Shown here piece by piece: positions 2,331 through 42,617 of a DNA stretch of 42,617 nt. Location of the stretch: IMG/VR virus record IMGVR_UViG_3300045116_000607, positions 1-42,617 of that record. The stretch is one strand, 5' to 3'. Each line of letters opens with the position of its first letter. The first letter of the stretch is position 1. The notes beneath the pieces were generated by a model. The model was not told the origin of the DNA. It did not search any database and worked only from the letters and a program-made list of their open reading frames with translations. Source of the DNA: a virus. A program made the position numbers and the translations under genes.

Positions 2331-3600
2331 GTTTCGACTCCTCTCCATCATGATATGTGTGTCCCATCCGCTTCGTAGGCAGATCTGGCCGGACAATGGT
2401 GGGCCGGCGCCACTGGACCCGGCGAAGACTGCGCCCGGGCCCGTAAGCCTGGGTAACGAAGCTTCCTTTCCGGATGAACGAGTAGGACACGGAACGACCC
2501 GTCCCAGTCTGGCTAGGAGCCCCTCTCGAAATCCGGTAGCACCGCGTCCTCGTTCCGCCGATCCAGGATTCCCAGCGCGAGAACTGCCTCGCCCGTTCCC
2601 GCTTGCCCAGCTTCTGGATCTGCTTGATGGGCGGAGGCGGCTTCTTGATCACATCGGCCCCAGGCAGGGTCATGTACAGGACCAGGTTGAGGCACAACTG
2701 GATCAGCGCATCGTAGAACTGCCCGTGGCGATCCGTCTCCCTGTCCAGCATGCGAAAACGAACCACCGCGCTCGACCGGTCCTGTTCCGCCTCATCCGTC
2801 CCCAGATGGTCCAACGCCTCCTTTGTGAGTGGAAGCGCGCTCGACGCCGTGGTCCAGCCGAGACCGATCGTTGGGTAGAAACGGACCAAGATGTGCATGA
2901 GGAGCAGGACCCGACCACTGTATGAAGAAGTGGTCTCAAGAGGCTCCACGTACTCGGACAGAAGTACGGCCCCAACCGAAGACCCGCCATACCACTCCTT
3001 TCTGTTCACAAGCTTCTCGCCAACCGTGACCGATCGCTCGTCGCTGTCCTCGTCCTCGATCATGACGAAGGTGTCCCTGGGCAGCATCAAGGCCAGGCCG
3101 GGCACCGGCAACCGGATCTGATCAGGATCCGTTACCTTCAACGTGGTATCGTGCATGGCTCGAATCAGCTCTGTCGACGGCGCGAACCAGCACGGGGTGT
3201 CACTCAACTCGACGAGCTTGAGCATAGAATAGCACCCCTTCAGGGCGAGAGTGCGCTGAGACCGAGCATCGGCACGCTTATCGCCGGTCAGCAACTGTGT
3301 GTCTTGCCCCATAAGACTGATGAGCTGTTCTGCGGCGTCAGGCTTCGGAAAGTCGACATAATGGATCTGCAGCGGGTGCCGGAGCCCGACAGGCACCACG
3401 TTGCCCATGGCCCGAACCATACACCAGATCAAGTAACTCAAGGCCGGAGCCACGGCAAGCTGAGACTCGCCCATGGCCTCCAACTCAGCACACATCCACT
3501 TCAAGTCCTTGGCTTCAGGCACCACAACCGGCTTCCTGAAGGTCGGCTGCGCCCCTGAGGTCAGCGCCGCATAGAGCTCCCGAGCTCGTGCTTCGTACAT
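2314..3600 (-). CDS. Orphan 428-residue protein with basic, AcrVA2-like C-terminal signature
   Basis: 428 residues. The N-terminal two thirds are mixed alpha/beta with no motif I recognise. The last 100 residues are basic and aromatic, with the pattern RKGSFVTQAYGPGRSLRRV followed by a W-R-R-P element. That R-x-G-x(3)-Q-x-YGPGRS-x-R-x(3)-W layout resembles the C-terminal domain of the widespread phage family to which the anti-CRISPR AcrVA2 belongs. I recall this from reading only, and most members of that family have no known function. ATG 3600 is set by GAAGGAG upstream and a TATAAG element 20 nt away. It is the first gene of a three-gene unit ending with RNase HII. Confidence 0.75.
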   Translation of the reverse strand: MYEARARELYAALTSGAQPTFRKPVVVPEAKDLKWMCAELEAMGESQLAVAPALSYLIWCMVRAMGNVVPVGLRHPLQIHYVDFPKPDAAEQLISLMGQDTQLLTGDKRADARSQRTLALKGCYSMLKLVELSDTPCWFAPSTELIRAMHDTTLKVTDPDQIRLPVPGLALMLPRDTFVMIEDEDSDERSVTVGEKLVNRKEWYGGSSVGAVLLSEYVEPLETTSSYSGRVLLLMHILVRFYPTIGLGWTTASSALPLTKEALDHLGTDEAEQDRSSAVVRFRMLDRETDRHGQFYDALIQLCLNLVLYMTLPGADVIKKPPPPIKQIQKLGKRERARQFSRWESWIGGTRTRCYRISRGAPSQTGTGRSVSYSFIRKGSFVTQAYGPGRSLRRVQWRRPTIVRPDLPTKRMGHTYHDGEESKHDEAE

Positions 3601-3620
3601 GAATATCTCCTTCTGGACAG

Positions 3621-3626
3621 CTTATA
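3621..3626 (-). promoter_or_regulatory. TATAAG promoter-like element for the 428-residue gene operon
   Basis: CTTATA on the plus strand reads TATAAG on the minus strand, 20 nt before ATG 3600. Spacing matches the plus-strand cassettes. Confidence 0.6.
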
Positions 3627-3637
3627 TCCGTATCGAG

Positions 3638-3667
3638 CTAAGGATTTGGGCCCAGAAGAGTGGGCCC
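3638..3667 (-). terminator. Hairpin plus CTTAG-tail element at the end of the 3695-7618 operon
   Basis: On the minus strand a 7-bp stem (GGGCCCA 3648-3654 with TGGGCCC 3661-3667) is followed by AAATCCTTAG (3647-3638). It lies between the stop of the gene ending at 3695 and the TATAAG element at 3621. It fits the terminator-then-promoter layout seen elsewhere. Confidence 0.55.
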
Positions 3668-6421: not shown

Positions 6422-6735
6422 CACCATTCCTCCTGCTCGGGCACTTGGATCGTGGCTTGGATGTGGACGGTGCAGCCACCTTCCAGACTCGCCTTCCTGG
6501 CCAGGTGACGAAATGTTGCAGCCGAGTCTCGTTGAGCTCCGGCCTCATCCTTGTCACCCTCGTCCTCTAGGGCCTCGGCGTAGGCCTCGAGCAGTCCGGC
6601 GGCTTCGATGAGCTCGGAGTTGTCGATCCATTCTCGCGCTGTCGTGGCGTCTCCTTCTTCTTGGGTTGGGGCTCGATTCGTCTCGCGTGTTCCCGGCGCA
6701 GCTCGTGCAACTCGTTCCAGAGTCGTCCGTTCCAT
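6421..6735 (-). CDS. Acidic helical hypothetical protein, 104 residues
   Basis: Unknown function. It is mainly helical and charged, with the segment SELIEAAGLLEAYAEALEDEGD and a C-terminal ASLEGGCTVHIQATIQV strand. ATG 6735 overlaps the TGA of the NADAR gene as ATGA and has GAGGAGG upstream. Its TGA overlaps the helicase start, so NADAR, this protein and the helicase are coupled in one operon. It could be a helicase partner, but that is only a guess from position. Confidence 0.7.
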   Translation of the reverse strand: MERTTLERVARAAPGTRETNRAPTQEEGDATTAREWIDNSELIEAAGLLEAYAEALEDEGDKDEAGAQRDSAATFRHLARKASLEGGCTVHIQATIQVPEQEEW

Positions 6736-7322
6736 CACTCGACCTCCTCGATTCGTGCCACGTGCTCCGGGCACAGCAAAAGTGCCGACTTCCCGATCCG
6801 GGGAGCAATCCCGGGCCAAATCCAGCTCCCGTCAGCACTGCAGTTCTTCACCATGCAACATCGATCAGCGCCACCGCAGAGGTGTCTCATGTCCATGAGC
6901 ATCAGACCAAGACAGTTCGACCCGCTCCAGGTCGTGATGTCAGCTCCCCAGAAATGATCGTGCCACGTATTGCCCTCGATGAGACAACGAGGACTCGTCG
7001 CCACGAGTTGTTGCCGCAGCCCAGAGTTGACGAACTTGAGGGTGAGCACCTCCCACATCACAGACAGCGCGATATCCGGATGCCAACCAGGTCGAAGCAC
7101 AATCGTCCGTCCGCGGTGTTTGGCCTCTCTCGGGGTCGGAGCCGAGCCCACGTAGATCATGTCCTCCAGCGTTGTTGCCTTGGCGAGCTGAAAGGCTTGT
7201 TCTGCGCTGTGCACCGGAAATCCGTTGTAGGTCATCTGCTCCTCGGAGGTGAACAGATAGAAATTGCTGAGAAACTCGTGTTCACCGCGAAACCGGTCGA
7301 TGGGTGGCGTCAGAGTCAGCAT
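6735..7322 (-). CDS. NADAR/YbiA-like domain protein with an added Cys-rich tail
   Basis: 195 residues. The NADAR fold signature is clear: FRGEHEFLSNFY (11-22), HSAEQAFQLAKA (38-49), HPDIALSVMWEVLTLKF, LIEGNTWHDHFWG (114-126) and GSNCLGLMLMDMR. NADAR proteins act on ADP-ribose-linked or riboflavin-pathway N-glycosidic bonds, and some phage relatives are discussed in connection with NAD-based defence. After the domain, about 45 residues add cysteines C155, C156, C161 and C184, a possible metal knuckle not usual in YbiA. The ORF overlaps the upstream 100-residue gene by 7 nt. It may counter host ADP-ribosylation or NAD-depletion defence (inference). Confidence 0.88.
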   Translation of the reverse strand: MLTLTPPIDRFRGEHEFLSNFYLFTSEEQMTYNGFPVHSAEQAFQLAKATTLEDMIYVGSAPTPREAKHRGRTIVLRPGWHPDIALSVMWEVLTLKFVNSGLRQQLVATSPRCLIEGNTWHDHFWGADITTWSGSNCLGLMLMDMRHLCGGADRCCMVKNCSADGSWIWPGIAPRIGKSALLLCPEHVARIEEVE

Positions 7323-7618
7323 GCTCCCTCCTTCGACCTCGGTACCAGAAGGTCGTCAGCGTAGTGCATGAAGCGAGCTTGAAAGGTGGCAGGAGTGCCA
7401 CTAGCGAGCGTCCGATCAGGGGTACTGGCTACGATGTGCGGACCGTAGGCTCGGAACACCCCATTGTGCGTGCCCCTCAACCAGACCTTCTGACCAGCGT
7501 GCACCTCGCCCCACGAAATCGGAGCCCAGGCCGCCTCATTGTACAGATCGTTTCCATCCCGATTGTCCAGGGTACTTCTCCGCTCACACGAGTAGTGTCC
7601 GTCCTCACCTTCAGGCAT
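7316..7618 (-). CDS. Hypothetical protein, 100 residues
   Basis: Unknown function. A small beta-rich sequence with the motif GEVHAGQKVWLRGTHNG, which looks like a small barrel (SH3-like) turn pattern. It is first in the accessory operon, with GGAAGGAG upstream of ATG 7618 and a TATAAG element 33 nt upstream. It overlaps the NADAR gene by 7 nt, so the pair is probably co-translated. Confidence 0.65.
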   Translation of the reverse strand: MPEGEDGHYSCERRSTLDNRDGNDLYNEAAWAPISWGEVHAGQKVWLRGTHNGVFRAYGPHIVASTPDRTLASGTPATFQARFMHYADDLLVPRSKEGAC

Positions 7619-7651: not shown

Positions 7652-7657
7652 CTTATA
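7652..7657 (-). promoter_or_regulatory. TATAAG promoter-like element (extended, TATCCTGT-TATAAG)
   Basis: On the minus strand the sequence TTATCCTGTTATAAGAG sits 33 nt before ATG 7618. TGT directly before TATAAG gives a TGn extended -10. The octamer TATCCTGT recurs before the TATAAA element at 38408. Confidence 0.65.
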
Positions 7658-16947: not shown

Positions 16948-19900
16948 CTAGATGATCAGCTCGAGGTCGATTCCGTTGAGCGGGGCCTTGGGTCCGAGAT
17001 ACACCTTCGCCGTGGCTCGAGTTGGGTTCGTTGTGCTCTGGGTCAGACTCGTCACCTTGGCCGTGTTCACGACCCGCTTGTCGTCGGTGAGCCAGGTCGA
17101 GAGCCCTTCACAGATCACACTGAGCCCATCGAGGAAGCTCTGCGTGATGTTGTTGAGACCGATGTACTTGCGCAGAGACGCCCGGTAGAACTTGGCGCAG
17201 AAATCGACAGCCTTGACCACGCTCTGCTCCTGGGTCTTCCAGCTGGTCCCATCCGTCGTGACCTGATGCCGGGAGTAGACCGGGCCCGTGTCCTCGCCAG
17301 CCTGGATGATGATGTCGGCGCCGCCCGCCGCCATCTGGTTCAACTGACGTCGGGTGTAGACACCGGTCGTTCCCGTGACCCTATTGAAGCCAGCCATGGA
17401 GCGCTTGGTCAGAGGCGTATCCGGATCGAGCCCGGCAACCTGACCTGCCTTGGCAGCGCAGGCATAGAACCCATCGATGGTCTGCTCCACCCCGTCGACC
17501 GTGGCGTAGAGCTCGTTCAGGAACAGCATCCACATGCGCCGATCCGCGAACGCTGTGCCTCGAGCGTAGACCGTCTCGACCACGTCGTCCTTGTCCGAGA
17601 TTGCGGCACCTCGAACCTTCACGCTGAACGTTTCCGAGATCACGACGGGAAACAAGACGCTCTCCGCGTAGAACCCGTCGGTGTTTTCACTCGCCAAGAA
17701 AGCCGTGTTGATCGGGACCACGGTGCCGCCCGTGATCGCACCCTTGATGTTCCAGTTGTAGGCGTCCTCGGCGATGTCCAGGAAGACACCGTCACTCACC
17801 TTGATGTCAGCCGGATTGATGCCCAGTGCGATCAACGCCGCGGTCAGCGTGGGAATCTTCGTGTCGAACGTGGTCGGCACGGCGCCGATGCTGTCACCGT
17901 CGTTCCCGCTGACCACGATCGTGTCCACCTTGCGCGTGGGCACGGCGAGATGGAAGGCACAGATGCGCTCCCCACCCATCTCCGGCTCCGACATGGCGTC
18001 GACGTGGGTCTGCATGATCGTGGCCACGTCGAGGTCGGAGCACATCGGGGCGATGGCGTAGACCTCCTTGCCCTCGAGCAGATCCAGGGCCTCGGTGTAG
18101 GCCGTCACCGTTCCGTTGGGCTTGTCGTCGGAAACCTCGCTCACACCCAGACCGTAGATCCGAGTGTCGGGTGCGTTGAGCATGGCCACGTAGATCCCGT
18201 AGGCCAGCGGGTTCTCCGGGGTCACCGGCGGCATGCTGGCTTCGAGCTCGTTGTAGCTGTCGAAACCATACGTGCTCGGGTTGGTCGCGTCCGGAGTCAC
18301 GTCGAGCCTGAGAGCGTTGAACATGGCGTAGCAGCCAACCGCCGCTGTCACGATCGGGTTCCCGTCGGATCCTCGCAGGATATCGTGCTTGATCCAGACG
18401 TCGCCACTGGTGTCGATGCGCAGATCCGGGGTTGGGACGGAAACGCCCCACTGTGCCGGCGCCACCGTATCCAGGTTCTTGGCGATGATGTACCAGGAGG
18501 CCCAGGTGGCGGTTAGTGCCACCTCTCGATCCAGCTTGACCCGACCCGAGACAGCACCCGGATGGACCTCGGACACATAGCCGAGGAAGGCGCTATCGCC
18601 GTAGACCGCATCGCCCGGACGGACGCTGAACGCTGTGCCGTAGTAGGACCCGGCCGTCATGCCGAGACCATTTGGCGAAGCACCGATGCCGGTGGACTCC
18701 GTGTGGATCTCGATCTTCGACTCGTACCCGCTTGTGCTGCAGGTCAGCTTGACCAGGTTGCCCGCGGTGATCGACGCGATGGTGGCGCCGAGCACGTTGT
18801 TGATCTGGGTCTCGACCGGGTCTCGTGGACCGGCTCCGCCCGTGGCCAGCAGCTGCTGATAGGGGCAGCTCAGGCCGAGGAACAGGACCCCGCCGCTCTC
18901 CGCGGTGACGATGACCGAGGAGTTGGCCACAGCTACAGCTGGGTTGCCGCCAACGACCAGACCGAGATGGGTCGCGCCGGCGTTGCCGTTGGCATCGGAA
19001 GCGAAGGCCAGGTTGCCCACGCCAAGCGCAACGACGTCGGTATCAGCGTTGATCTGGGCTACGAGGCCAGCCAGGTTCGCCGCGGCGACGACGTTGGCGA
19101 TGATGCCGGCAGTTCCGTTGACCGTCATCGTGATCGTGCCGGTGTAGGGGAAGATGCCAGCCACGGCCTCGGAGATGACAGGATCACCCTGGAACGTGAC
19201 CGTCTGCTTGCCACCGCCATCGATCTGCAGCACGAGGGTCTTGCCGTGGAGGACCCGACCAACGTTCACCAGGGTCGTACCGGTGTGAGTCGCCGCCGTC
19301 GGCGGTGTGGCCTTCAGGTTCTCGGAGAGGTTGAGAAGCGGCGTGGTCTGATCCCCATCCCCATCATCTACAACAGCGATGGTGCTGCCGCGACGCAGGA
19401 AGCTTTCCGTCTCCAGGATCTCGAGGGTGTAGCTGGTCAGGTTCAGGAAGACCCGGATCGTATCCTCGAGGATGTTACGCTGTGTGGTCAGCCCCTTCGG
19501 ATCGGGGAAGCTGGACTGCTTCAGGAAGACCCTGTCCTGAATGTAGGACCCCAGCCCGTAGTAGGTATACCCCTTGCCGTAGCCGAGCTGGTCGGGGGCA
19601 TCGAGCAGGGTCCCGCCCGTGATCTGGATCGTCTTCGTCGCACCGGTACCCGTGGTCCGAAGCTGGAGATAGATACTGGATGTGGCTGAATCGGTCCAGG
19701 TATAGGCCGCGAAGCCGACTGGAGCGACGGTGGCCGTGTTGATCGCCGTCGCGACCTGGGCCGCGGTGAGCGTTGCCGTGTCGGGCATGGTGAAGGTCTG
19801 CTCCGGACCTCCATCCACACACAGCTTGAGCGTCTTCAACGCCATCGCCGTGTACGAAGTCTGATCCTTGGGCGCGGTGGCCACGGCAGGACCGCTCAGA

Positions 19901-30888: not shown

Positions 30889-33800
30889 CTACGCCACCCC
30901 GCCAGCCTGTGCAAGGGCTCCTGCCATTTTGAGCCCGTGCAGATCACAGTGCTGATCCACGTACTCCGAGACCGGTTCCTCCAGATAAGCTCGGTTCAGG
31001 TAAGTGGTCGGCATCGTCCTGAGTATTGATTCAAGCACGTCCCCACCCCTCTTGGCAAGACCTGACCGGAACAGCTCCTGACCGAGCACGTGATCGAGAA
31101 GCTGTGGCTCTTGCCTCAACGCATCTCGAGCGAGACCGGCTACCTTGTAGATCAAGCCGCGCCGATAACCTCGATACAGCGCGGCGATCTTGCGAAGCAG
31201 AGCGTTGTCTCCGGCTTCCTTGAGCACGTCGGACTTCGACACGGGGGCCTGCTTTTCCGGCGCTGCCTTTGCCATGATCACAACAGTGCGACGGTGCAAT
31301 GGCGGAGCAAAAGCGCTGCGCCCCATGATCAGAGGGAGCAACATGCGAAGGAAATCGGGTCGGGTCTGATCCGGGAGGGGGAAAGGAAGCTCGTCCGATC
31401 CCGGCTCGAATCCGATTCCGGATCGGTGCAGGCTGTCGGCGAGCCCGGGACGGCCCATGGAGATGATCATGATGCGCTGGAACTCGCCAGGGCGAAGGAC
31501 CACGCCGGCACCAGCCGCGCTGGCCAGAGCACCAGGCACATCCTTGGCCATGGCATCTTGCACATCGAGCGGGATTTCGGGCTCGGAAGCCTCGATGGCG
31601 GGCAGCCTGTCCTCGAAGTTGGACTTGACCGCCTTCTCGATCTCCGCATCCTTGTCCAGGGCGACTTTGGGCTCGGACCCCTGTTTGGCCCTCTGCGCCA
31701 GCTCGTCGCGAACCTGACGAAGATAGGCATCGACCCTCCTCTCCGTGACTGGATCGATGTCGCTGAGAGTGAGATCTTCAATGCCTTGAGCCTGCTTTGG
31801 CATGGGCTGTTCCTCGTCCCGAGTCCAGACCTCGTACACGTGACTTGATGGAATGATTCGACCCTCGGCACAGGACGCGCACTTGACGTGGCCCGACCGG
31901 ATCGGGCATTCCCCGGCCAACTTGCCCAGAATGAAGCTAGTCTTGTCCGCGCCGATGTAGACCACGCTGATATCGAAGAAGCGCGGATGGAGATTGATCA
32001 TCTTGGCCTTGCGACCATCGGGGTAGATCCGACCGAGCTGGGTTCGGAGATGCTCGCAGTAGTCTCGAACCGTGGGGCTCAGGCCTTGGATCGGGGACCG
32101 TCGATGCTCAGCTAGATCCAGTCGAGGATCTCCAGTGATACGAGACCAGTCAGCACAATGACCACAATTATGTACTACAAAGCCTCCAGCAACATAGCTC
32201 TCGTCCTCCTCGACCGCGAGATTGCACGTCTCTGTAGAACCAGTGAGGCTCCGTACTGATCGAACTGGAGTGCAGACGTAGTTTTTCCAGAAAAAAAGAC
32301 GGGCACCGCCCCGGGACACCACAGCCTTCACCTTTAGACTGAATTGGTTGAGAGGGCTTAATGATGCTGAGGGAAGGCTTATCCAATAGGCCAACGCACC
32401 AGGAGCGTAGCCCGAACGTGTTCGCTGTCTTCTGAAAGTTGCGGGGATACCAAGAGAAAGTGCAAGATCGCGCACTTCCCAAGCCAGCGATTCGTTAGCC
32501 GTAACATAGCGAACGCCGCATCTCGATCTATTGTTAGAAGGCGTGTCCTCCGAGCCGTCGGTATCGATCAAGCCCCCTAATAGAAAGAATCTGGCCTCCG
32601 GCTCCCAATCCATCCAATCGCTCGGTAAATGCTTACCCCGGCTGCCCTCGCCACAAAGTTCCACTACAGACGCGGCCAGATGCTGGTCATAGAGACGGAT
32701 TGTGACGGCATTCTTGTCCCCCTCTTTGTATACGCGCGGAAGATTTTTTCTACTACACCGGCGCAGCAGATCTACTAGATCATCAATATGTTCCTTCTCG
32801 TCAGTACCTGCACTGAACTGCACACCTTGAAGTACGTACTCTCCATCTCTTTTTCGACCCCGACGTTGCCTAATCGGACACCCGTCACCCAAATACATCC
32901 CCATCAATCGCGCATGCAGCAACGAGAACTTAGTCGTACCTGCTCCCACAGGAGTCAAAAGATAGGCTCCAGCGACAACCTCAGATGCGGAGACCCACTG
33001 AGGTTTCAGGTCAAGTTGTTTCCCACAAAAAGAGCAAAGGCCCTCTCTGTCCACTCGATGTCTTCGCCGTAACCCGTTCGCTGACCCTTGACAGCCACGC
33101 ACCGACTTTTCACACAGCATGTAGATAGGATGATTCGGCGTGCAGCGAATAGGATCAGGAACTCCCACAGGCTGAATCTCGATGATTCTGTCCGCAGTTC
33201 TGCGAAAGGTCTGGGTTACAGGACGCCAGCGATCCTTGTGTGTCTGTACCAAGTCGCCCACGACGACCTCTTGGATTCGGACAGGTCCTCGCTTTGTACG
33301 GATGAGAGTCGAGGGGTCTAGGCACACGTCATAGGGTACGCGACATCCCATGCTCACACTTGGGAACTCGCCGTTGTCGATCCTGGTCAGGATGCTCGTG
33401 GTGTCCTGGGCCTGGGCACGCATGCGGTCGAAAGCCACGACCAGGAGCACGCGCTTCATGTGCTCGTCCCAGAGCACATAGGCCACAGATCCGAAGGCCC
33501 GGTTCGGATCCTGGTTCCTGTGGTGGGCAAAGGCATGAGCGTTGTAGAAAGTAGGGAAACCCCACTCCCAGCCCTTGCCGACGCTGACCTGCTGCGGATA
33601 GCTCAGCGTGTCCCATCCCAGCGGCGCGTGGATCAGGGACGGCTTGCCGATGCCGTGAGGCATGACCTCCGGAAAGTCGTCGGCGTTGCTGTTGTCGCCC
33701 CAGTACTCACCCGCTCCCATCGCGCTGATCAGGGCGTAGAGCAGGTTGTCGTTCCGCTCCATCCCCTTCATCACGTGCATGATCCGTTCGAGCTGGGGTG

Positions 33801-33918
33801 CGGACGCGGTCTCGGCCGCCGTCTTCAGGAGATGGGCGTTGTTGTAACCGGGGTGGAGCAGGTGAAGATGCTCACCCCTCGAATCCTGAGTCGGGAACTG
33901 GCACTGCTTGATGATCAT
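30889..33918 (-). CDS. Prohead-protease-like protein interrupted by an intein
   Basis: 1009-residue precursor: N-extein 198, intein 386, C-extein 425. The N-extein has the order of a head maturation protease: a strand with FPTFYNAHAFAHH (H129, H132 or H133 as candidate catalytic His), GSVAYVLWD, then GEFPSVSMGCRVPYDV, where S187 or S189 may be the catalytic Ser. The spliced product joins VPYDV to CGHCADWSR. The C-extein has a Cys pair region (CPIRSGHVKCASCAEG), a region with KQAQGIEDLT, and K-x-A sites (KIAALYRG, YKVAGLAR). The leader has LLKTAAETA. It would cleave scaffold and head proteins during maturation. The assignment to the S78/U9-type group is by motif reading and position; the fold is not proved. 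Confidence 0.68.
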   Translation of the reverse strand: MIIKQCQFPTQDSRGEHLHLLHPGYNNAHLLKTAAETASAPQLERIMHVMKGMERNDNLLYALISAMGAGEYWGDNSNADDFPEVMPHGIGKPSLIHAPLGWDTLSYPQQVSVGKGWEWGFPTFYNAHAFAHHRNQDPNRAFGSVAYVLWDEHMKRVLLVVAFDRMRAQAQDTTSILTRIDNGEFPSVSMGCRVPYDVCLDPSTLIRTKRGPVRIQEVVVGDLVQTHKDRWRPVTQTFRRTADRIIEIQPVGVPDPIRCTPNHPIYMLCEKSVRGCQGSANGLRRRHRVDREGLCSFCGKQLDLKPQWVSASEVVAGAYLLTPVGAGTTKFSLLHARLMGMYLGDGCPIRQRRGRKRDGEYVLQGVQFSAGTDEKEHIDDLVDLLRRCSRKNLPRVYKEGDKNAVTIRLYDQHLAASVVELCGEGSRGKHLPSDWMDWEPEARFFLLGGLIDTDGSEDTPSNNRSRCGVRYVTANESLAWEVRDLALSLGIPATFRRQRTRSGYAPGALAYWISLPSASLSPLNQFSLKVKAVVSRGGARLFFWKNYVCTPVRSVRSLTGSTETCNLAVEEDESYVAGGFVVHNCGHCADWSRITGDPRLDLAEHRRSPIQGLSPTVRDYCEHLRTQLGRIYPDGRKAKMINLHPRFFDISVVYIGADKTSFILGKLAGECPIRSGHVKCASCAEGRIIPSSHVYEVWTRDEEQPMPKQAQGIEDLTLSDIDPVTERRVDAYLRQVRDELAQRAKQGSEPKVALDKDAEIEKAVKSNFEDRLPAIEASEPEIPLDVQDAMAKDVPGALASAAGAGVVLRPGEFQRIMIISMGRPGLADSLHRSGIGFEPGSDELPFPLPDQTRPDFLRMLLPLIMGRSAFAPPLHRRTVVIMAKAAPEKQAPVSKSDVLKEAGDNALLRKIAALYRGYRRGLIYKVAGLARDALRQEPQLLDHVLGQELFRSGLAKRGGDVLESILRTMPTTYLNRAYLEEPVSEYVDQHCDLHGLKMAGALAQAGGVA
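32167..33324 (-). other. Intein with LAGLIDADG endonuclease in the prohead-protease gene
   Basis: 386 residues from C (codon 33324-33322) to the last N (codon 32169-32167), with C as the +1 residue. Block A CLDPSTLIRTKRGPVRI, block B CTPNHPIYML (the TxxH histidine), block F CNLAVEEDESYVAGG and block G FVVHN are all present. The two endonuclease motifs LMGMYLGDG and FLLGGLIDTDG keep their acidic residues, so it should splice and cut. A CxxC pair occurs near the first third (CSFC). Lines I counted inside are about 50-57% GC against about 63% next to it, suggesting later arrival. Confidence 0.93.
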
Positions 33919-35926: not shown

Positions 35927-36700
35927 ATGGGAAGTCAAGGCGATTTCGTAACCATCGAGGACGCCGCTCAGATCCTGGACCTTGGTCCAGATCAAGTCAT
36001 GGACATGCTCGAGGCCGGACGATTTCGACGATTTGGTACGGGTGAAGACGTCTTGATCCCCCGGTCTGACGTCCTCGAGCAAAAAAACCTCCTGCTTGGG
36101 GCAGACCAGATCAAGCTGGATCCAGAACGTCTCCTCCTCATCGAGGCTCGATTGCAGCGAATCGAAGGGACCCTGAACCTTCTGTTCGAGGTCCTCAACC
36201 TGGGCAAGAACCGGTTTGCCAAGATTCCGGAACAGACCCTGCGTGACCTCCACGCCAAGGCTTCCATGCTGGAACGAGAAAAGATCTGGCTACCCGGAAC
36301 CATGATCGAACAGGCCCAGGTCTTTGTCCGGCTCCACGAAGTCGACCTGGTCCACCTCAACCTGGCCCTCGATATCAAGGATAGCTGGCGTCCCTTTCTC
36401 AATCTCTGCCTCAAGATGCTGCGCCACCTCCGAACACGAGATCTGACCACGAGTCTGGAACTGCAACGAGCCCAGGCCCTCCTCCTCACGGGACGGGACA
36501 ACCTTCGACTCTGTGCCGCTCTCCTCATCGAACGTGAGCACTACGCCGACAGCAGCGCCAGCCTTCTGGCCCAGGTTGCAGCCGAAGACCTCGACGCCTT
36601 CGACACCCTGGTTCGACGAAGGTGTGATGAGCAGCGCATTCGCCGAGAACGGCACCTCCAGCTTCTTCAGCCTGCAAAAACGACTCGATTCCAGAGATAA
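35927..36700 (+). CDS. HTH (MerR/excisionase-type) protein, possible structural-operon regulator
   Basis: 257 residues. The N-terminal 50 (FVTIEDAAQILDLGPDQVMD, GRFRRFG, VLIPRSDV) fit the winged HTH of the helix_turn_helix_17/excisionase type. The rest is helical and charged, with long stretches such as LLLIEARLQRIEGTLNLLF that may mediate dimer formation. GGAG precedes ATG 35927. Because it is transcribed away from the virion operon across a shared 76-bp gap, regulation of late genes is a reasonable guess. It is not demonstrated. Confidence 0.7.
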   Translation: MGSQGDFVTIEDAAQILDLGPDQVMDMLEAGRFRRFGTGEDVLIPRSDVLEQKNLLLGADQIKLDPERLLLIEARLQRIEGTLNLLFEVLNLGKNRFAKIPEQTLRDLHAKASMLEREKIWLPGTMIEQAQVFVRLHEVDLVHLNLALDIKDSWRPFLNLCLKMLRHLRTRDLTTSLELQRAQALLLTGRDNLRLCAALLIEREHYADSSASLLAQVAAEDLDAFDTLVRRRCDEQRIRRERHLQLLQPAKTTRFQR

Positions 36701-36751
36701 GAATTCAGTTACAACCATCTGTATTTGCTGCAAAAATGTGGCAGATGCAGG

Positions 36752-36792
36752 TATAAGATGTAATGAATAGCCGGGTATTCTCCTTACCGGCT
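36752..36792 (+). promoter_or_regulatory. TATAAG element and 5' UTR hairpin of the coiled-coil gene
   Basis: TATAAG 36752-36757 lies 56 nt before ATG 36814, farther than in other cassettes. Between them AGCCGGGTA 36769-36777 pairs with TACCGGCT 36785-36792 with one bulge, giving a stable leader hairpin, and GGAAAGGAGAGG then precedes the ATG. The rest of 36701-36813 has CATCTG/CAGATG arms but no gene. Confidence 0.5.
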
Positions 36793-36813
36793 GTTCAGGA
36801 AAGGAGAGGATAC

Positions 36814-37788
36814 ATGGGTGAGGAGCAGAAGCAGCGTCCGTCCCTGGTCGGGGCGGCGCTCGAGGACCCGGCCGACACCGCCATCAAGGCGGTGTTGGTC
36901 GGTGGCGTGGCCGCCGGGGGGACGTACCTGGCGTGCCACTTCTTGGAGGCGGGACCGGTCACCACCGGCCTCGCCTCGGCGGGAGCCGGTGTGGCGGCGG
37001 CGGCGGGGACCGCGGTCGGCGTGGCCGCGTCCCGGCGACGCGCGAGCGAGCGAGCAGCGGAGCGGGCAGTCAAGGCCATCGAGCCCAGGCTCATCGACGT
37101 CGAAACGGCGAGCAGGGCCAGCGAGTCGAGACACGACGCTGCCGAGACGGCAATCGTGACCGGCGAATCGAGACTCGCCGTTGTCGCGGCAGCCGTCAAG
37201 GGTATCGAGCCCAGGCTCGTCGGCGTCGAAACGACCGTCAGAGATACCGGTCCCCGGCTTGCCAGCGTCGAGGCGGCCGCCCGGGTGCTCGAACCCCGGA
37301 TCGCCGGCATCGAGACAGCCGTCAGGGATGTCGAGCCACGGATCACCGCCGCCATCGCGGCGGCCGAGACGGCGGCCGGGGTGATCCAGACGACAATCGT
37401 GGCGCTCGAGCCCAAGCTCACCTCCATCGAAGCAGTGGGCAGGGAGGCGACCGAGGCGGCCAAGAGCGTCGAGCCCAAGCTCGCCGCCGCCGAGGCGGCA
37501 GCCAAGGCGCTCGAGCCCCGGATCGCCGGCATCGAGACAGCCGTCAGGGATGTCGAGCCACGGATCACCGCCGCCATCGCGGCGGCCGAGACGGCGGCCA
37601 AGAACTCGCCGCCCACGGCGCTGACGATCTCCCTGCCCCAACTCCAGGGGGCCGCGGAGACACTCTTCGAGCTCTTGGGGGCGATGCCCGAGACCGTCGC
37701 GCAGATCCAGCGTGCGACGGAGACCCTGCGCCACGGCGGCGACGGAGCCGCGAAGAAGGGCAAGCCCGTGGCGGCGACCGCTCCCTAG
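36814..37788 (+). CDS. Membrane-anchored repeat coiled-coil protein
   Basis: 324 residues. Residues 22-72 are Gly/Ala-rich and hydrophobic (AVLVGGVAAGGTYLACHF; GLASAGAGVAAAAGTAVGVA), likely one or two membrane passes. Residues 75-270 are degenerate repeats of IEPRLxxVExxxR type with heptad-like spacing, predicted to form a long helix bundle or coiled coil. Two exact 84-bp repeats code for RIAGIETAVRDVEPRITAAI. The C-terminal 55 residues differ (LPQLQGAAETLFELLGAM). ATG 36814 has AAAGGAGAGG upstream. A host-envelope or spanin-like structural role is possible; function unknown. Confidence 0.7.
   Translation: MGEEQKQRPSLVGAALEDPADTAIKAVLVGGVAAGGTYLACHFLEAGPVTTGLASAGAGVAAAAGTAVGVAASRRRASERAAERAVKAIEPRLIDVETASRASESRHDAAETAIVTGESRLAVVAAAVKGIEPRLVGVETTVRDTGPRLASVEAAARVLEPRIAGIETAVRDVEPRITAAIAAAETAAGVIQTTIVALEPKLTSIEAVGREATEAAKSVEPKLAAAEAAAKALEPRIAGIETAVRDVEPRITAAIAAAETAAKNSPPTALTISLPQLQGAAETLFELLGAMPETVAQIQRATETLRHGGDGAAKKGKPVAATAP
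37294..37599 (+). repeat. 84-bp exact in-frame repeat (37294-37377 and 37516-37599)
   Basis: The copies are 222 bp (74 codons) apart and identical over 84 bp, so the frame is kept. Homologous exchange between them would delete or add 74 residues of coiled coil. Confidence 0.93.
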
Positions 37789-37818
37789 CCCCCTTCTCTC
37801 CTCCCGTTCGACTCTCCT

Positions 37819-37847
37819 CGGTCCCACTTCGTGGACCGAATTCTTAG
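37819..37847 (+). terminator. Hairpin plus CTTAG-tail terminator-like element
   Basis: CGGTC 37819-37823 pairs with GACCG 37834-37838 and CAC 37825-37827 with GTG 37831-37833, with one bulged C, then AATTCTTAG. It ends the coiled-coil gene. The identical element recurs at 38366-38394. Confidence 0.6.
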
Positions 37848-37860
37848 CGGTGTATCCTGG

Positions 37861-37866
37861 TATAAG
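37861..37866 (+). promoter_or_regulatory. TATAAG promoter-like element (TATCCTGG-TATAAG)
   Basis: TATAAG lies 20 nt before ATG 37887, preceded by GTATCCTGG, with a TGG extended -10. GGAAAGGAG follows as ribosome site. Confidence 0.65.
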
Positions 37867-37886
37867 AATTATGGAAAGGAGTGAGC

Positions 37887-38360
37887 ATGTGCACATGTCC
37901 TAACGTCGGTTGGTGCGACCCCAGCAGCGATTGCTGGGGCTGCCCCTACGCGGAGATGAAGCAACGCCAGGAGGAAGAGTACGAAGAGTATGAGCCTCCA
38001 CCGCCCCCACCCCCACCCCCACCCCCACAACTGCAGGACGACGAGCTTTGGGGTGCGCTTCAGGCGATCGTCGCCAGGTGCAGCCGGTTCTCGGGCTACC
38101 GGCTCGAGAGCCGGTTCGAACAAAGTCGCACGGGAACGTGGCTCCTCGTCATCGAGGACCCCGCAGTGGTAACGCGATCGACGTTGGTTCTCGCGCGCCA
38201 CCTGGTGCCCGGCCTCCTACGGGAGGTGTATGGGCGGCTGAGGCACTGGGGAATCACCCCCAAGGAGGAGCAAGTGCTCCTCCAGGCCCTCCAGGCCGTT
38301 GAGGAGTCTCCACCCCCCTCTCCCCCAGTCATGATGTCTCCCCTCCATCTCGACGACTAA
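37887..38360 (+). CDS. Cys-rich/polyproline protein, first of two paralogues
   Basis: 157 residues. The N-terminus MCTCPNVGWCDPSSDCWGCP has six Cys in 19 residues, a probable metal site. A run of 11 prolines (CCCCCA hexamer repeats in the DNA) links it to a helical C-terminal domain (GALQAIVARCSRFSGYRLES; TLVLARHLVPGLLREVYG). ATG 37887 has AAAGGAG 5 nt upstream. It shares its N-terminal module and control region with the next gene, but not the C-terminal domain. Function unknown. Confidence 0.7.
   Translation: MCTCPNVGWCDPSSDCWGCPYAEMKQRQEEEYEEYEPPPPPPPPPPPQLQDDELWGALQAIVARCSRFSGYRLESRFEQSRTGTWLLVIEDPAVVTRSTLVLARHLVPGLLREVYGRLRHWGITPKEEQVLLQALQAVEESPPPSPPVMMSPLHLDD
37919..37939 (+). other. 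Hairpin inside the 5' coding region of the first Cys-rich gene
   Basis: CCCCAGCA 37919-37926 pairs perfectly with TGCTGGGG 37932-37939 over a GCGAT loop. The same hairpin sits at 38460-38480 in the paralogue. It begins about 33 nt (26 nt in the paralogue) after each start codon, where structure can influence translation. Confidence 0.75.
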
Positions 38361-38365
38361 CCCCC

Positions 38366-38394
38366 CGGTCCCACTTCGTGGACCGAATTCTTAG
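38366..38394 (+). terminator. Hairpin plus CTTAG-tail terminator-like element
   Basis: Same bulged stem as at 37819-37838, here 38366-38385, with AATTCTTAG at 38386-38394. It ends the first Cys-rich gene. Confidence 0.6.
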
Positions 38395-38407
38395 CGGTGT
38401 ATCCTGT

Positions 38408-38413
38408 TATAAA
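38408..38413 (+). promoter_or_regulatory. TATAAA promoter-like element (TATCCTGT-TATAAA)
   Basis: It lies 20 nt before ATG 38434, with TGT before TATAAA and GGAAAGGAG after it. Confidence 0.6.
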
Positions 38414-38433
38414 AATTATGGAAAGGAGTAAAC

Positions 38434-38643
38434 ATGTGTACATGCCCGAACTGGTGCGACCCCAGCAGCGATTGCTGGGGCTGCCCCTATGAAGAAAGTG
38501 AGCCACCACCGCCCCCTCCGCTTCCTCCATCACGCCCCGACCCATGCCGGTGTGCATGGGCCTTTCCGGGACCCACCCCGTGTCAGTGCCCGATCTGCGG
38601 AAAAATCGCAGGCGATCCCTTCGGGCGCGTTTTCCCGTTCTAG
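38434..38643 (+). CDS. Small Cys-rich protein, second paralogue
   Basis: 69 residues with ten cysteines. The N-terminus MCTCPNWCDPSSDCWGCPYE matches the previous gene. A short proline run links it to a second Cys group (DPCRCAWAF; PCQCPICGKIAG). The C-terminal CQCPICGK is a knuckle typical of zinc ribbons. It probably binds two or more metals. The role is unknown; phage proteins this small often act on host enzymes. Confidence 0.72.
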   Translation: MCTCPNWCDPSSDCWGCPYEESEPPPPPPLPPSRPDPCRCAWAFPGPTPCQCPICGKIAGDPFGRVFPF

Positions 38644-38667
38644 CCCGATTCCGGGCAAATCTCTTAG
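38643..38667. terminator. Hairpin shared by convergent Cys-rich and terminase genes
   Basis: GCCCG 38643-38647 pairs with CGGGC 38652-38656, then AAATCTCTTAG. It begins at the last base of the plus-strand stop codon. The terminase stop codon TAA uses the TTA of CTTAG (38664-38666), so the element may serve both strands. Confidence 0.5.
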
Positions 38668-41600
38668 GCCGCTATGCCCGGAGCGAACTCGACGTGGCCC
38701 GGGAACATCGGGATCAGGATGTCGGGTCGGGGCCGCATGATCATGGAAGCAAGGAAGCAATAGAGCATGGAGTGGAACGTGTCGTCGGACTTGCCCCGGG
38801 TGAGCTTGTACTGCGTCATGTGGAGCCGGGCATTGTACTCGGCGAAGATGTTCAGCATGTCCTGCGCGTAGGGGTCTTCCCACTGGGACCACTTCGGGAA
38901 CCGGACCTTCTGGTTGCGGATCGCACTGAAGAAGTCGGACATGACCTCGGTTCGATGAAGAATGAAACGACCCAGGTCCGGCTCCCAAGCCACCTTCTTC
39001 TTGGGGCTGCCCGCATACTGATACCGCGCAACCCGAGACATGCTGAAGTTGCGCATGAGCCAGTCATTGCGGTCGAAACCGCCACCGTAGTCCGAACCCA
39101 GGATCTTGAAGTCCACGGCCAGGAGGAGCTTGGCGATGCGTCTGAGCTGTCGTCGAGGGTCCAAGTCTTCCCCCGTGAAACGATGTGCGAAGAAGATCTG
39201 GAACAGGCCATCGATGTAGCCGCCCAGGGTGAGCACGCTGAACGAGGCCTCCTCCCCGCTCCCGTGATCCAACCCCGCGAAGACCCCGCTCTCGCACCGC
39301 TTCGCCGTTTCCAGCACCTTGGTCATGTCGATGTTGTCGTTGCAGCATCGAATGACATGGGCTCGTTTCAGTGGGCGCTGACCGCTATCGTAGGAGACAC
39401 CCAGGACCTCGTTGTTGAAACGAACCGCATCATATTGCTCGAGGCAGGTCAGGATCTCCTTCCACTTCGGCCCGAGCATCCAAGGCACCATGAGCTGACA
39501 GATATGGTAACCGGCGAACGTGACCCGGTTCGCGTTGTCCGAGGTTACCGGTTGCATCTCGACCCACTGAGCCAGCGGGTCGTTAGGGTCGATGGGCTTG
39601 CCACATCGCGTACAGATCGGACCGGTCTTGCCGATGTTCTTGATCCCGAGCACGTTCCAGTGCCAGGAGGAGGGCTTGTTCGGCGTGCCATGAGCACGGC
39701 ACGGCACGGCCCACTCGTTCTGCGTGCTGAAGTCGATCCAGTACTTGTGGAGTGAGTTGTCCAGGCTCTTCGGAGTGCCGGCATAGTCGAAAAGGCCGTA
39801 GCTGGAGTGGGATGTGCACTGCTCGATGACGGGCACGGACGGCCCGTGCACGTCCTGGAACTCATCGATCTGTACCTTGTCCGAGGCGATACCCCGCGCC
39901 CGGTCCGCGGAGAGGAAGGCATACCGGATTCTGATCTGGGATCTGTTGCGGAACTGCTTGAAGAAGACGTTCTGTGCCAGCTCCCTGCTGATCATATACT
40001 GCAGCTGTGGGCTGATCTCCAGAGGATCGCGAAGCCGATCCACACTGAAGACCTGAGCCTGAGCTGCGGTGGGGCAGACGTAGAGTGTCTTGAAGGCGGG
40101 AATGATGGCACTGTAGGCCAGGCTGCTGTTGCCGAGATAGGTCGAGTTGTGTGTCACGAGCCCGCCAAGGACAAAGTTGCCCGTGCCTTCAACCGTGATG
40201 TCGTAGCACCAGCGTTCCCCAACTTCTTCGATCTCTACAACCCGATCCCAATACAAATCGGTATCGACATGCGCCTCAAGACGCCGCAGAAGCACGGGAT
40301 CACAGCCCCCGGCGGCGTAGAACTCGACGTACCGTTGTAGCTTGCGCCTCGATAACGGATAGACGGGAGAGGCATGGAGCCCGGCCTTGTAATGGGCACA
40401 ACGCCCACGGCTCCAGGTCCGGGCCACAGCCCTGAGATCATCCGTGATCTGTAGGGGGTATGTATCTCTGTTGCTGTTCTGCTTCACGCTTGGCATGGGA
40501 ACGTCTTCCGACTTTCCCAGCGCACCTATCTCGGTCAGGAAGGCGACGACCCCATCCTGGGTTTGAATCGTCAAGATGTAACTAGACCGACCCGTGCCCT
40601 TGTACAAGGTTGGCTCGTGGCCCCGAATACGGCTCGGTATCCCGAATTTCCACAGGAGCCGCTGAACCTCCTGCACCAGCTGGTGCGATGTGGACGCGTA
40701 GACCAGTACGTAATGTGACGGACACGGCACCTTGACAGAGCCATCCGTGGCCCAAAGCCTGTTCAGAAACAGAGCCGTCTGGCGCCGATCTAGACCCCAA
40801 ACCCAGTTCGGTACTGCGTGCTCTGCCGAGCGACGTCCCCAGACGCCCCACCGTTCCAGGAGCTGTCTCGGTTCGGAGCCGCGTCCCGCCTGCAAATTCA
40901 GAACGGTTGCACCGTTCCGCCGCCCTTCTCGAACGGGCCAGCCTTGAGCCCGAGCCAAGGAACGAAACTCATTCAATACAGGACCCGGGTTCTGGGTGAA
41001 ATTGAAGTTGTTGCTGACCCCGCAACAACCATCGCCGATCATGTAGGCCGCAAAGATGATCTGCGGGTCCGGGGTGTCTGCTGGGGTCACGACGAACACG
41101 CCGGCTCGACGAACGGAAGCAATCCGATCCCCGACCGCCAGCGCGCCGGATTCGGTCCACTTTCCCCAACTTCGAAGAGGATGGGTGGTTGCCACGGTCG
41201 CTTCAAGGTTTTGCTGCATGCGTATTCGTCGGCACGGTTTCTTGTACCGAGTCGACTTCCAGGTCACAGTACCCGTTGTGATATGCGAGCCATCCTCGGC
41301 CAGGGTTGCAACCCGATCCCCAACTTGAATCGCCGAGATCGGAACCGTAGCGCCGTTGGCCAGAAGGACGGGTGAATGCTCCTCGCACGACTTTTCGCTC
41401 TGCCGGCTGAAGATGAGAAGCTTGCGCCGAGCCGGCGAATCGTAGATGGTCCGGAGGTAGCGTCGGCCCTCGAAGCTGAAGGGGACGATCTCTCCCTCGA
41501 TCGGGATCCGGACAGCGAACTCGGTGAACTCGCTGGGGGTGACCTCGATTCGACGTTCCTGACGCTGCTTCTCATACTCTTGTTCAAAGAGGAGGCCTTC

Positions 41601-41747
41601 CATCTCAGACCGTTGTTGGAGCAGGCCCTCCTCCTCCATGAGTAAGCCATCGAGCTCGTCTTCCAGATCCTGGGAGTAGTCATCCTGCTCCACCGACCTC
41701 TTTGCATCGAGGTAGAAGTCCCTGACCTGTTCGGGGGCTGCAGCCAT
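38664..41747 (-). CDS. terL: Terminase large subunit interrupted by an intein
   Basis: 1027-residue precursor: N-extein 120, intein 414, C-extein 493. The spliced N-part ends LLIFSRQSEKS and resumes STYLGNSSLAYS, rebuilding a Walker A motif of the SRQxxKS type. Walker B is KVQIDEFQDV. A Cys cluster (CRAHGT, CTRCGKPIDP) lies between ATPase and nuclease, as in some terminases. The nuclease acidic residues are in FAGLDHGSGEE, KILGSDYGGGFD and KSDDTFHSM. The enzyme cuts and packages DNA into proheads, bound to the portal. ATG 41747 is used; an upstream TTG at 41753 is possible. The ribosome site (AGGATAGG) is weak. The N-terminal 75 residues are a charged coiled coil. Confidence 0.95.
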   Translation of the reverse strand: MAAAPEQVRDFYLDAKRSVEQDDYSQDLEDELDGLLMEEEGLLQQRSEMEGLLFEQEYEKQRQERRIEVTPSEFTEFAVRIPIEGEIVPFSFEGRRYLRTIYDSPARRKLLIFSRQSEKSCEEHSPVLLANGATVPISAIQVGDRVATLAEDGSHITTGTVTWKSTRYKKPCRRIRMQQNLEATVATTHPLRSWGKWTESGALAVGDRIASVRRAGVFVVTPADTPDPQIIFAAYMIGDGCCGVSNNFNFTQNPGPVLNEFRSLARAQGWPVREGRRNGATVLNLQAGRGSEPRQLLERWGVWGRRSAEHAVPNWVWGLDRRQTALFLNRLWATDGSVKVPCPSHYVLVYASTSHQLVQEVQRLLWKFGIPSRIRGHEPTLYKGTGRSSYILTIQTQDGVVAFLTEIGALGKSEDVPMPSVKQNSNRDTYPLQITDDLRAVARTWSRGRCAHYKAGLHASPVYPLSRRKLQRYVEFYAAGGCDPVLLRRLEAHVDTDLYWDRVVEIEEVGERWCYDITVEGTGNFVLGGLVTHNSTYLGNSSLAYSAIIPAFKTLYVCPTAAQAQVFSVDRLRDPLEISPQLQYMISRELAQNVFFKQFRNRSQIRIRYAFLSADRARGIASDKVQIDEFQDVHGPSVPVIEQCTSHSSYGLFDYAGTPKSLDNSLHKYWIDFSTQNEWAVPCRAHGTPNKPSSWHWNVLGIKNIGKTGPICTRCGKPIDPNDPLAQWVEMQPVTSDNANRVTFAGYHICQLMVPWMLGPKWKEILTCLEQYDAVRFNNEVLGVSYDSGQRPLKRAHVIRCCNDNIDMTKVLETAKRCESGVFAGLDHGSGEEASFSVLTLGGYIDGLFQIFFAHRFTGEDLDPRRQLRRIAKLLLAVDFKILGSDYGGGFDRNDWLMRNFSMSRVARYQYAGSPKKKVAWEPDLGRFILHRTEVMSDFFSAIRNQKVRFPKWSQWEDPYAQDMLNIFAEYNARLHMTQYKLTRGKSDDTFHSMLYCFLASMIMRPRPDILIPMFPGHVEFAPGIAA
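40146..41387 (-). other. Intein with LAGLIDADG endonuclease at the terminase P-loop
   Basis: 414 residues from C (codon 41387-41385) to N (codon 40148-40146), with S as +1. Block A CEEHSPVLLANGATVPI, block B VATTHPL, block F CYDITVEGTGNFVLGG and block G LVTHN are present. The endonuclease motifs are FAAYMIGDG and LFLNRLWATDG with acidic residues kept, so it should be active both in splicing and in homing. It lies between K-S and S-T of Walker A, a favoured intein site in ATPases. Confidence 0.95.
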
Positions 41748-41771
41748 GAACAAAGCCTATCCTGTTCCGGA

Positions 41772-41777
41772 TATAAG
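41772..41777 (+). promoter_or_regulatory. TATAAG promoter-like element
   Basis: It lies 21 nt before ATG 41799, with GGAAAGGAGG as ribosome site. TATCCTG is 7 nt further upstream than in the other TATCCTG cassettes, at 41759-41765. The terminase gene must also have its promoter in or beyond this 51-bp gap. Confidence 0.6.
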
Positions 41778-41798
41778 AGCTACGGAAAGGAGGAGCCC

Positions 41799-41993
41799 AT
41801 GTCTCCAGAACAAGCTGTCGAGCTAGCCCGGAAGGTGTTCGGAGAGCCGGATCAAGTCCAGATCCGGTACGCGCCGAATACCTGCCCACGCCAAGGTCGC
41901 GTCGGTACGCAGCTCAAGCGCTGCGGGCTCTGCGGCGCTCAGTTCACAGTCTCGCCCTGGGGCGAGATTCCCCTCACCTTCCGACACCCCTAG
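41799..41993 (+). CDS. Small CxxC protein in an isolated plus-strand cassette
   Basis: 64 residues. A helix (SPEQAVELARKVFG) precedes NTCPRQGRV and KRCGLCGAQFTVSPWG; C29, C42 and C45 could bind metal with a further ligand. It stands alone between two leftward genes with its own promoter and terminator, as a phage moron would. Function unknown. Confidence 0.7.
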   Translation: MSPEQAVELARKVFGEPDQVQIRYAPNTCPRQGRVGTQLKRCGLCGAQFTVSPWGEIPLTFRHP

Positions 41994-42021
41994 CCAGGAC
42001 TTCTTCTGGCGATTTCCTTAG
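41993..42021 (+). terminator. Hairpin plus CTTAG-tail terminator-like element
   Basis: GCCAG 41993-41997 pairs with CTGGC 42006-42010, followed by GATTTCCTTAG. CTTAG runs into the palindrome CTTAGCTAAG. The remaining bases to 42089 show no gene. Confidence 0.6.
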
Positions 42022-42089
42022 CTAAGAACGAAATGGGCCATGCTAACCCACTCCGTCCGTAGTTCCTTCTCTCCTGGAACACACCTATG

Positions 42090-42581
42090 TCAACCACCTT
42101 GGTCACGTGAGAGACCCTTGAGCAGATCATCGGTCTGGCATTGCAACTCCACACTCTGCGCGACAAGGTCCTCATCCACGACATCGACCACGACCAGGCC
42201 GTACTCCAGCAGCTCTTGTGCTGTCGACCTGAGCCAGACACGCTTCTCGGTTCCCAGCCGGCTCCAGGCCAAAGCCATTCGAGCCGCCTTGATGATTTCC
42301 TCTGGCACCTTCTCGCCCGTGATCGCCCAGCGCGCTATGTCCTGTGCCGGTCCCTCTGATCGGTCGCGGGCGGCTAACCAGGAACGAGCCCAGCGCACCC
42401 AAAAACGAACCCAGGGCTCACGCGTCCGAGCCCGAATGCCGACGTTACCTCGGACCAGCGAGATGCAGTGACGAATAGCCCGAGCCACGGTGGGCTCCAG
42501 TGCTCGTTGAAGGATAGATCTGGCGTGCGGCCGCGCGCAAATCTGCATCAACGCCCGATCTCTCGACTCGGTCTCGGTCAT
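42090..42581 (-). CDS. Basic helical protein upstream of terminase, 163 residues
   Basis: Unknown function. The first two thirds are Arg/Trp-rich and helical (TREPWVRFWVRWARSWLAAR), the last third acidic (YGLVVVDVVDEDLVAQSV). A small terminase subunit is conceivable from position and basic character, but no motif supports it. ATG 42581 overlaps the upstream stop as ATGA and has GGAGAGGAG in front. Confidence 0.65.
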   Translation of the reverse strand: MTETESRDRALMQICARPHARSILQRALEPTVARAIRHCISLVRGNVGIRARTREPWVRFWVRWARSWLAARDRSEGPAQDIARWAITGEKVPEEIIKAARMALAWSRLGTEKRVWLRSTAQELLEYGLVVVDVVDEDLVAQSVELQCQTDDLLKGLSRDQGG

Positions 42582-42617
42582 GACTCCTCTCCGTCATCCT
42601 CGTCGATATCGGGTTCG
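42578..42617 (-). CDS. C-terminal end of an acidic protein (partial)
   Basis: An open frame enters from the right edge and ends PDIDEDDGEES with TGA at 42580-42578, overlapping the next ATG by 4 nt. Only 12 codons are visible. Acidic tails of this kind are common, so no function can be given. Confidence 0.55.
   Translation of the reverse strand, partial: EPDIDEDDGEES

Follow-up and report, generated by a model that had tools for sequence, protein, structure and literature searches.

The small genes described here probably occupy accessory-gene slots built around a re-used terminator–promoter joint, with the joints kept or duplicated and the genes between them replaced. As read from sequence comparison, the signals that these genes share seem to mark the slots in which genes are swapped. 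The analysis concerns the whole of the IMG/VR record IMGVR_UViG_3300045116_000607, all 42,617 bases of which (61% G+C) are referred to here as the window; an earlier note had described its small rightward genes as cassettes with a common control unit.

The phage and its family

The window belongs to a tailed phage, with a large terminase that matches PF05876 (GpA_ATPase) in a profile search, a weak tail-sheath match (E 5e-4) and large genes that run mostly leftward. Its nearest relative is the contig IMGVR_UViG_3300014613_000171 (G001, hereafter the sister), the terminase protein of which is 83% identical over 496 residues, a figure that falls to 68% within the first 120, with DNA identities of 80% and 75%. 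No near match to the first 25,000 bases of the window was present among 50,697 phage records, the terminases of isolated phages are 26–27% identical to that of the sister (best 15 of 141 matching), and terminase alignment against IMG/VR gave 178 related stretches, several of which, among the best 80, lie on contigs of 168–209 kb; taken together, these results point to an uncultured family of large phages. As regards the host, related terminases also occur in five bins, assigned to Deltaproteobacteria, Burkholderiales, an uncultured proteobacterium, Candidatus Eisenbacteria and Cyclobacteriaceae, although bins can contain stray phage contigs. Searches for relatives of the window helicase and of the gene at 37887 found none.

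Several features of the record can be noted in passing. By eye, the record opens within a tandem repeat of ~36 bp (1–75), and its left end may therefore be an assembly break. A NADAR-domain gene (PF08719, E 5e-17) lies at 6735–7322 on the minus strand. The terminase gene (38664–41753, minus strand) contains an intein carrying a LAGLIDADG domain at residues ~123–533, and the terminases of the sister and of five further relatives (G008, G002, G004, G006 and G007) align only with the parts that flank it. A second probable intein, with Hint and LAGLIDADG domains, spans residues ~199–585 of the protein encoded at 30889–33918 (minus strand), with which relatives align only before residue 200 and from 585 onward.

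Anatomy of the joints

The earlier note had placed TATAAG or a close variant 20–22 nt before the ATG of six plus-strand genes, and this is the case for all six, with four exact boxes and two variants. At the left end of the window, joint A1 (223–310) comprises a hairpin (223–237), CTTAG (244–248), TATAAG (283–288, ending 22 nt before the start at 311) and a ribosome-binding site. It leads into a 19-codon ORF (311–370) in which, by eye and from the duplication alignment, the beginning of the RadC gene is repeated in truncated form. The next unit (392–754) consists of CATAAG (392–397, gap 21 nt) and a gene for a protein of 111 aa (419–754), and is followed by joint A2 (775–862), a copy of A1 with a hairpin at ~775–789, CTTAG at 796–800 and TATAAG at 835–840 (gap 22 nt). 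A2 precedes the RadC (JAB) gene itself (863–1342; PF04002, E 1.7e-35), which ends in a further hairpin (1388–1403) and CTTAG (1410–1414).

At the right end, the series begins beyond an HTH gene (35927–36700, plus strand; PF12728, E 4.3e-7) with a unit at 36752–37788 that was absent from the earlier list, in which TATAAG (36752–36757) and a leader precede a gene for a 324-aa protein with a hydrophobic N-terminal part and coiled repeats (36814–37788). Joint B1 (37818–37886) then carries a hairpin (37818–37839), CTTAG (37843–37847), TATAAG (37861–37866, gap 20 nt) and a ribosome-binding site, and is followed by the first cassette gene (37887–38360, 157 aa), the product of which has a Cys-rich start and a proline-rich linker. 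Joint B2 (38366–38433) is a copy of B1, with a hairpin at 38366–38385, CTTAG at 38390–38394 and TATAAA at 38408–38413 (gap 20 nt), and precedes the second cassette gene (38434–38643, 69 aa), after which come a hairpin (38643–38656) and CTTAG (38663–38667), the latter containing the stop codon of the terminase on the other strand. On the far side of the terminase, a last plus-strand unit (41772–42021) consists of TATAAG (41772–41777, gap 21 nt), a gene (41799–41993, 64 aa), a hairpin (41993–42010) and CTTAG (42017–42021). Two convergent terminators apparently overlap at 41993–42050, with one hairpin per strand and a shared palindrome, CTTAGCTAAG (42017–42026).

A hairpin with a CTTAG tail, claimed for most of the six genes, indeed follows five of them, the exception being the 19-codon ORF at 311; the same arrangement follows the gene ending at 205 and the gene at 36814–37788, neither of which had been listed in this respect. 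The pattern CTTAG-N6-35-TATAA occurs five times in the window against a mean of 0.05 and a maximum of 1 in 100 shuffles, and a hairpin stands directly upstream of 9 of 11 CTTAG sites, whereas among the 59 remaining orderings of these letters the figure is 517 of 3600 (14%); as two pairs of units are duplicates of each other, the independent cases are fewer (~3 composites). The looser pattern TTAG-N1-40-TATAAG is found four times in the window, three times in the sister and six times in G008, a relative of 178 kb with a terminase 62% identical over 490 residues, for Markov means of 0.025, 0 and 0.1, respectively. Tail and box are thus fused in all three sequences, and the stem-loops of the window fold. 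The gain in stability is modest, with z values between −1.7 and −3.8 for seven hairpins, that of the hairpin after 41993 being only slightly better than shuffled sequence (z −1.7), and their T tracts are weak; a generic terminator scan of 36500–42617 gave five sites in all, for a shuffle mean of 3.7, and recognised one of the four hairpins of that stretch. No Rfam match was found in the window or in three related loci (L045, L159 and L162). In two of these loci a TATAAG-led stretch of ~70 nt is conserved (near 1584 on the minus strand of L162 and near 2123 on the plus strand of L159) and followed by T-rich TTAG tails; it is possibly a small RNA.

The box has its own context. A G stands two bases 5′ of it at all 13 aligned sites of the window and sister, and at 19 of 26 sites in G008. 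A −35 box is absent, the best match averaging 2.54 of 6 positions at the 13 sites against a background of 2.66, and a sigma-70 promoter scan of 36500–42617 found none at the boxes. Housekeeping sigma factors do not usually read a −10-like box with a terminal G, and the reader may therefore be encoded or modified by the phage. A PF04542 match was obtained in one of nine records, and the PF04542-matching protein, sought in 17 other records, was found in none; sigma-like region 4 (PF04545) exceeded the cut-off in 4 of 18 records, neither the window fragment nor G008 among them. A search of IMG/VR for the exact promoter string of the window's lineage gave the sister contig alone. The box variant TATAAGATCANTNGAAAGGA occurs in seven stretches on six contigs, and two of the matching loci (L157 and L161) look by eye like AT-rich chance hits.

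Signals outside the plus-strand cassettes

The same signals are found beyond the genes to which the earlier note had tied them. A complete joint lies on the minus strand at 3601–3667 (hairpin 3667–3648, CTTAG 3642–3638, TATAAG 3626–3621), before the gene at 2314–3600, and a minus-strand TATAAG (7652–7657) precedes the leftward gene at 7316–7618. In G008, TATAAG occurs 26 times compared with three for the reversed hexamer, 13 of the 26 are not covered by crude ORF calls, and one box stands 30 nt ahead of a gene homologous to the window gene at 2314–3600. Since the signals also precede leftward genes, they are not a plus-strand moron device, and this part of the earlier proposal is unsupported in the form given; they look like the general punctuation of an uncultured phage family.

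How far this punctuation extends depends on the motif. No excess of exact TATAAG was present in G002 (9 against 22), G003 (4/3), G004 (4/6), G006 (8/11) or G007 (3/2), nor one of hairpin-CTTAG in G002 (5/55) or G006 (4/55). At the head of the slot described below, NATAAG is found in 41 of 53 dereplicated members, compared with four for the reversed motif and two for an interior stretch, and on this sequence evidence the looser box seems to be family-wide. A scan of IMG/VR for the composite pattern returned 34 stretches, most of which look by eye like chance. Apart from that in the sister (L014), two seemed genuine, namely L009, on contig G008 with its related terminase, and L017, on contig G009; the latter was rejected as a relative because, for all the similarity of its boxes and tails, it has no match to the window terminase or to any window protein.

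The RadC gene provides no test of mobility, since a box precedes it in only 1 of 79 relatives (344 relatives were found, the best 80 of 344 at 31–44% identity). The description of the unit as portable can therefore be upheld as regards its retention and local duplication, and not as regards wider travel, given the RadC result and the restriction of the lineage's exact string to the sister.

Duplications through the joints

Both pairs of duplicated units reported in the earlier note are real. Positions 171–352 and 719–904 are identical at 162 of 186 aligned positions (87%), and 37809–37959 and 38354–38501 at 132 of 154 (86%); each duplication extends through a joint into the start of the following gene. 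The stems of the B1 and B2 hairpins hardly differ although they stand after different genes, and as termination requires a stem that pairs, whatever its sequence, this speaks for a copied joint.

The two cassette proteins encoded at 37887 and 38434 have in common a Cys-rich start (89% identity over the first 19 residues) and a proline-rich linker, and differ afterwards; from their sequences they look as if one start, once duplicated, had been fused to unlike ends.

A variable slot between the HTH gene and the terminase

The HTH gene and the terminase form the conserved left and right borders of a slot in which the sister and the window differ. Between the same neighbours (the HTH/membrane-type pair and the terminase), the sister contains genes for proteins of 120, 88 and 106 aa, none of which has blastp similarity (E up to 0.1) to the products of 37887 or 38434. 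At the DNA level, blastn matches (E up to 0.01) cover the HTH gene and the beginning of the gene after it, in which there is also a weak 50-nt match (E 0.006), as well as the joints and, at the terminase border where the last hairpin and CTTAG lie, 42 nt; nothing inside the cassette genes is matched. The first joint of the sister, which occupies the same position, is identical to 37816–37881 of the window at 58 of 66 positions, including hairpin, CTTAG, TATAAG and ribosome-binding site, and the match ends at the ribosome-binding site, 5 nt before unrelated coding sequence. This joint is the chief homology remaining within the slot. The second joint is 82% identical over 50 nt, and the third gave no blastn match at E 0.01. 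The idea of a platform for gaining and swapping genes thus gains from the comparison, in which a joint is retained beside different genes rather than the same genes beside unrelated flanks. This swap is seen in one sister pair; a second candidate, L159 versus G008, was discarded because a weak alignment of the two genes (tblastx, 37% over 90 codons) leaves room for their being homologues that have diverged.

Across the family, a relative of the HTH gene lies beside the terminase in 65 of 84 sequences (the window and 83 loci, several of them redundant), and the pocket between the matched ends of the two genes measures 0.1 to 4.6 kb. In close relatives it usually opens with NATAAG and a leader, followed by a gene whose product is small, hydrophobic and often rich in glycine. 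The counterpart of the gene at 36814–37788 is recognisable by sequence in the sister (tblastn, 51% over 55 residues), and its protein gave no tblastn match in G008, G002, G006, G004 or G007; in relatives other than the sister, the first gene of the slot was called a counterpart by position and look alone. For the membrane-type gene of L045, tblastn and blastn were used, the automatic gene call having given an ORF in the wrong frame.

Among 14 pockets inspected, eight have this single gene before the terminase, two of these (L078 and L079) sharing the same pocket length and gene start, and five have extra genes: two in the window, three in the sister, two and a shorter ORF in L076, one in L077 and two in L085. 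The remaining pocket (L087) has a different single gene. Relatives therefore differ in the presence or absence of extra genes at the slot, over a range of 0 to 3. The extra genes of L085 are, by eye, two pentapeptide-repeat genes with a duplicated leader.

Upstream of the terminase there is probably a second accessory slot. A TATAAG-led gene lies there on the same strand in both the window and the sister, and the window gene at 41799–41993 has no similarity to its counterpart in position at 17268–17655 of the sister, a comparison bounded by one flank only because the sister contig ends inside the latter gene.

RadC is the only slot gene with a confident family. The products of 419, 37887, 38434 and 41799 and of the sister's first three slot genes matched nothing in Pfam above the cut-off or in PHROGs, and that of the sister's fourth slot gene matched no Pfam family.

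A working model and its alternatives

In the model that we favour, a NATAAG box, usually with a G two bases upstream and without a −35 box, would mark the start of transcripts, and a hairpin with a short T-rich stretch and TTAG would mark their ends. At the borders of small genes the two signals would fuse into a joint of ~65 nt comprising terminator, promoter and ribosome-binding site. Slot genes would be transcribed singly and against the direction of the terminase, each presumably insulated from convergent terminase transcription, and the genes between joints would be replaced, most likely through homologous recombination in the joints. What the sequences show is the anatomy of the joints, their excess over chance, different genes beside a retained joint in one sister, duplications through the joints and a variable number of extra genes in relatives; the roles of the box in initiation and of the hairpin in termination are inferred from these, as is the use of the joints in recombination. 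Against the model as a whole stand the shortness of the joints for homologous recombination, the weak T tracts and the single sister pair.

A rather unlikely account is that the joints merely punctuate transcription by one common apparatus, that genes move by illegitimate recombination and that joints are selected for expression and not for exchange. This would fit the leftward window genes and the many places in G008 that carry the same signals, as well as the degree of conservation of the first joint, which at 58 of 66 positions is not far above that of the terminase DNA (80% over 1485 nt); what it leaves aside is the recurrence of identical stems after different genes and the duplications that begin and end around joints, both of which speak for the copying of joints.

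It is improbable that the cassettes are classical morons, each acquired, along with a promoter and terminator of its own, from a host or a different phage. The extra single genes do lie, with their own signals, between neighbours that are adjacent in relatives, and are oriented opposite to the main operons, but the signals belong to the recipient family rather than to the genes, and base composition is mostly close to that of the genome: the G+C content of 37887, 38434, 41799 and 863 (0.646, 0.638, 0.636 and 0.588) lies near the overall 0.613, and that of 419 is higher (0.702). Of the moron layout suggested earlier, the presence or absence of extra genes at a slot holds, and a deviating composition is missing from most cassettes. 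It is very improbable that hairpin-CTTAG is the recombination site of a site-specific cassette system in the style of an integron array, for in spite of the arrays of single genes, with a hairpin of constant tail after each, hairpin sequence and length vary from gene to gene, the motif ends genes outside the arrays too, and no recombinase was found among the profile-searched window proteins (part of the ORFs of a record that is itself a fragment).

The slot model with retained joints thus keeps the swapping of genes from the earlier interpretation and drops its restriction to morons and to the plus strand.

Comparison with known systems

The promoter early stem-loops (PeSLs) of T4-type phages (PMC4503421) offer the nearest known parallel; the PeSL papers (Arbiol et al. 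2010; Comeau et al. 2014) are cited in PMC4177764, PMC5931544 and PMC5348500. The likeness lies in a promoter joined to a stem-loop terminator, both putative in the window, and repeated between small accessory genes of a variable region (here a slot with 0 to 3 extra genes), and in close relatives that exchange genes while the unit stays, which is seen here in one sister pair. The PeSL promoter is reportedly of the sigma70 early type, with −35 and −10 elements, and the older of the two studies is said to have described mini-circles excised by recombination between PeSL units. In contrast, the unit in the window has no −35 box, its box is NATAAG, its hairpin tail is TTAG and the terminase is of the GpA type (PF05876); lacking a −35 element, it is not filed as a PeSL, though it would work like one. 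We put forward tentatively, as the less likely outcome, that a whole uncultured lineage of large tailed phages arrived on its own at a platform of the PeSL kind, with joints of terminator, promoter and ribosome-binding site that are read without a −35 element, exchanging genes by recombination and having at least two fixed slots beside the terminase.

A TATA-like box with an inverted repeat precedes many genes of the haloarchaeal virus HGTV-1, for which the motif was proposed to act in regulation and in genome shuffling outside T4-type phages (PMC3950731). That system differs in being an archaeal virus with an archaeal promoter, and is likened here by description.

Morons, according to PMC1524935 and PMC2147016, are extra genes between conserved neighbours with their own promoter and terminator. 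The window resembles them in that its slot genes are extra between genes adjacent in relatives (8 of 14 pockets are single-gene) and have promoter-like and terminator-like sequences, and differs in that these signals are the family's common punctuation and that base composition is mostly not deviant. The T4 late promoter, a box of sequence TATAAATA read by gp55 (PMC1524935), is similar to the extent that it too consists of one short AT-rich box and lacks a −35 element; the box of the window is NATAAG and not TATAAATA.

A limited and partial literature search found no description of the joint of this phage family. The slot beside the terminase is a simple handle with which to collect the accessory genes of the family, of which those tested, RadC apart, matched no known family, and the question of what reads a −35-less TATAAG box becomes testable. 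Regulatory joints that double as exchange points have been described in T4-type phages, with a similar suggestion for a single archaeal virus; if the reading proposed here is true, they arose also in a different, uncultured phage family.
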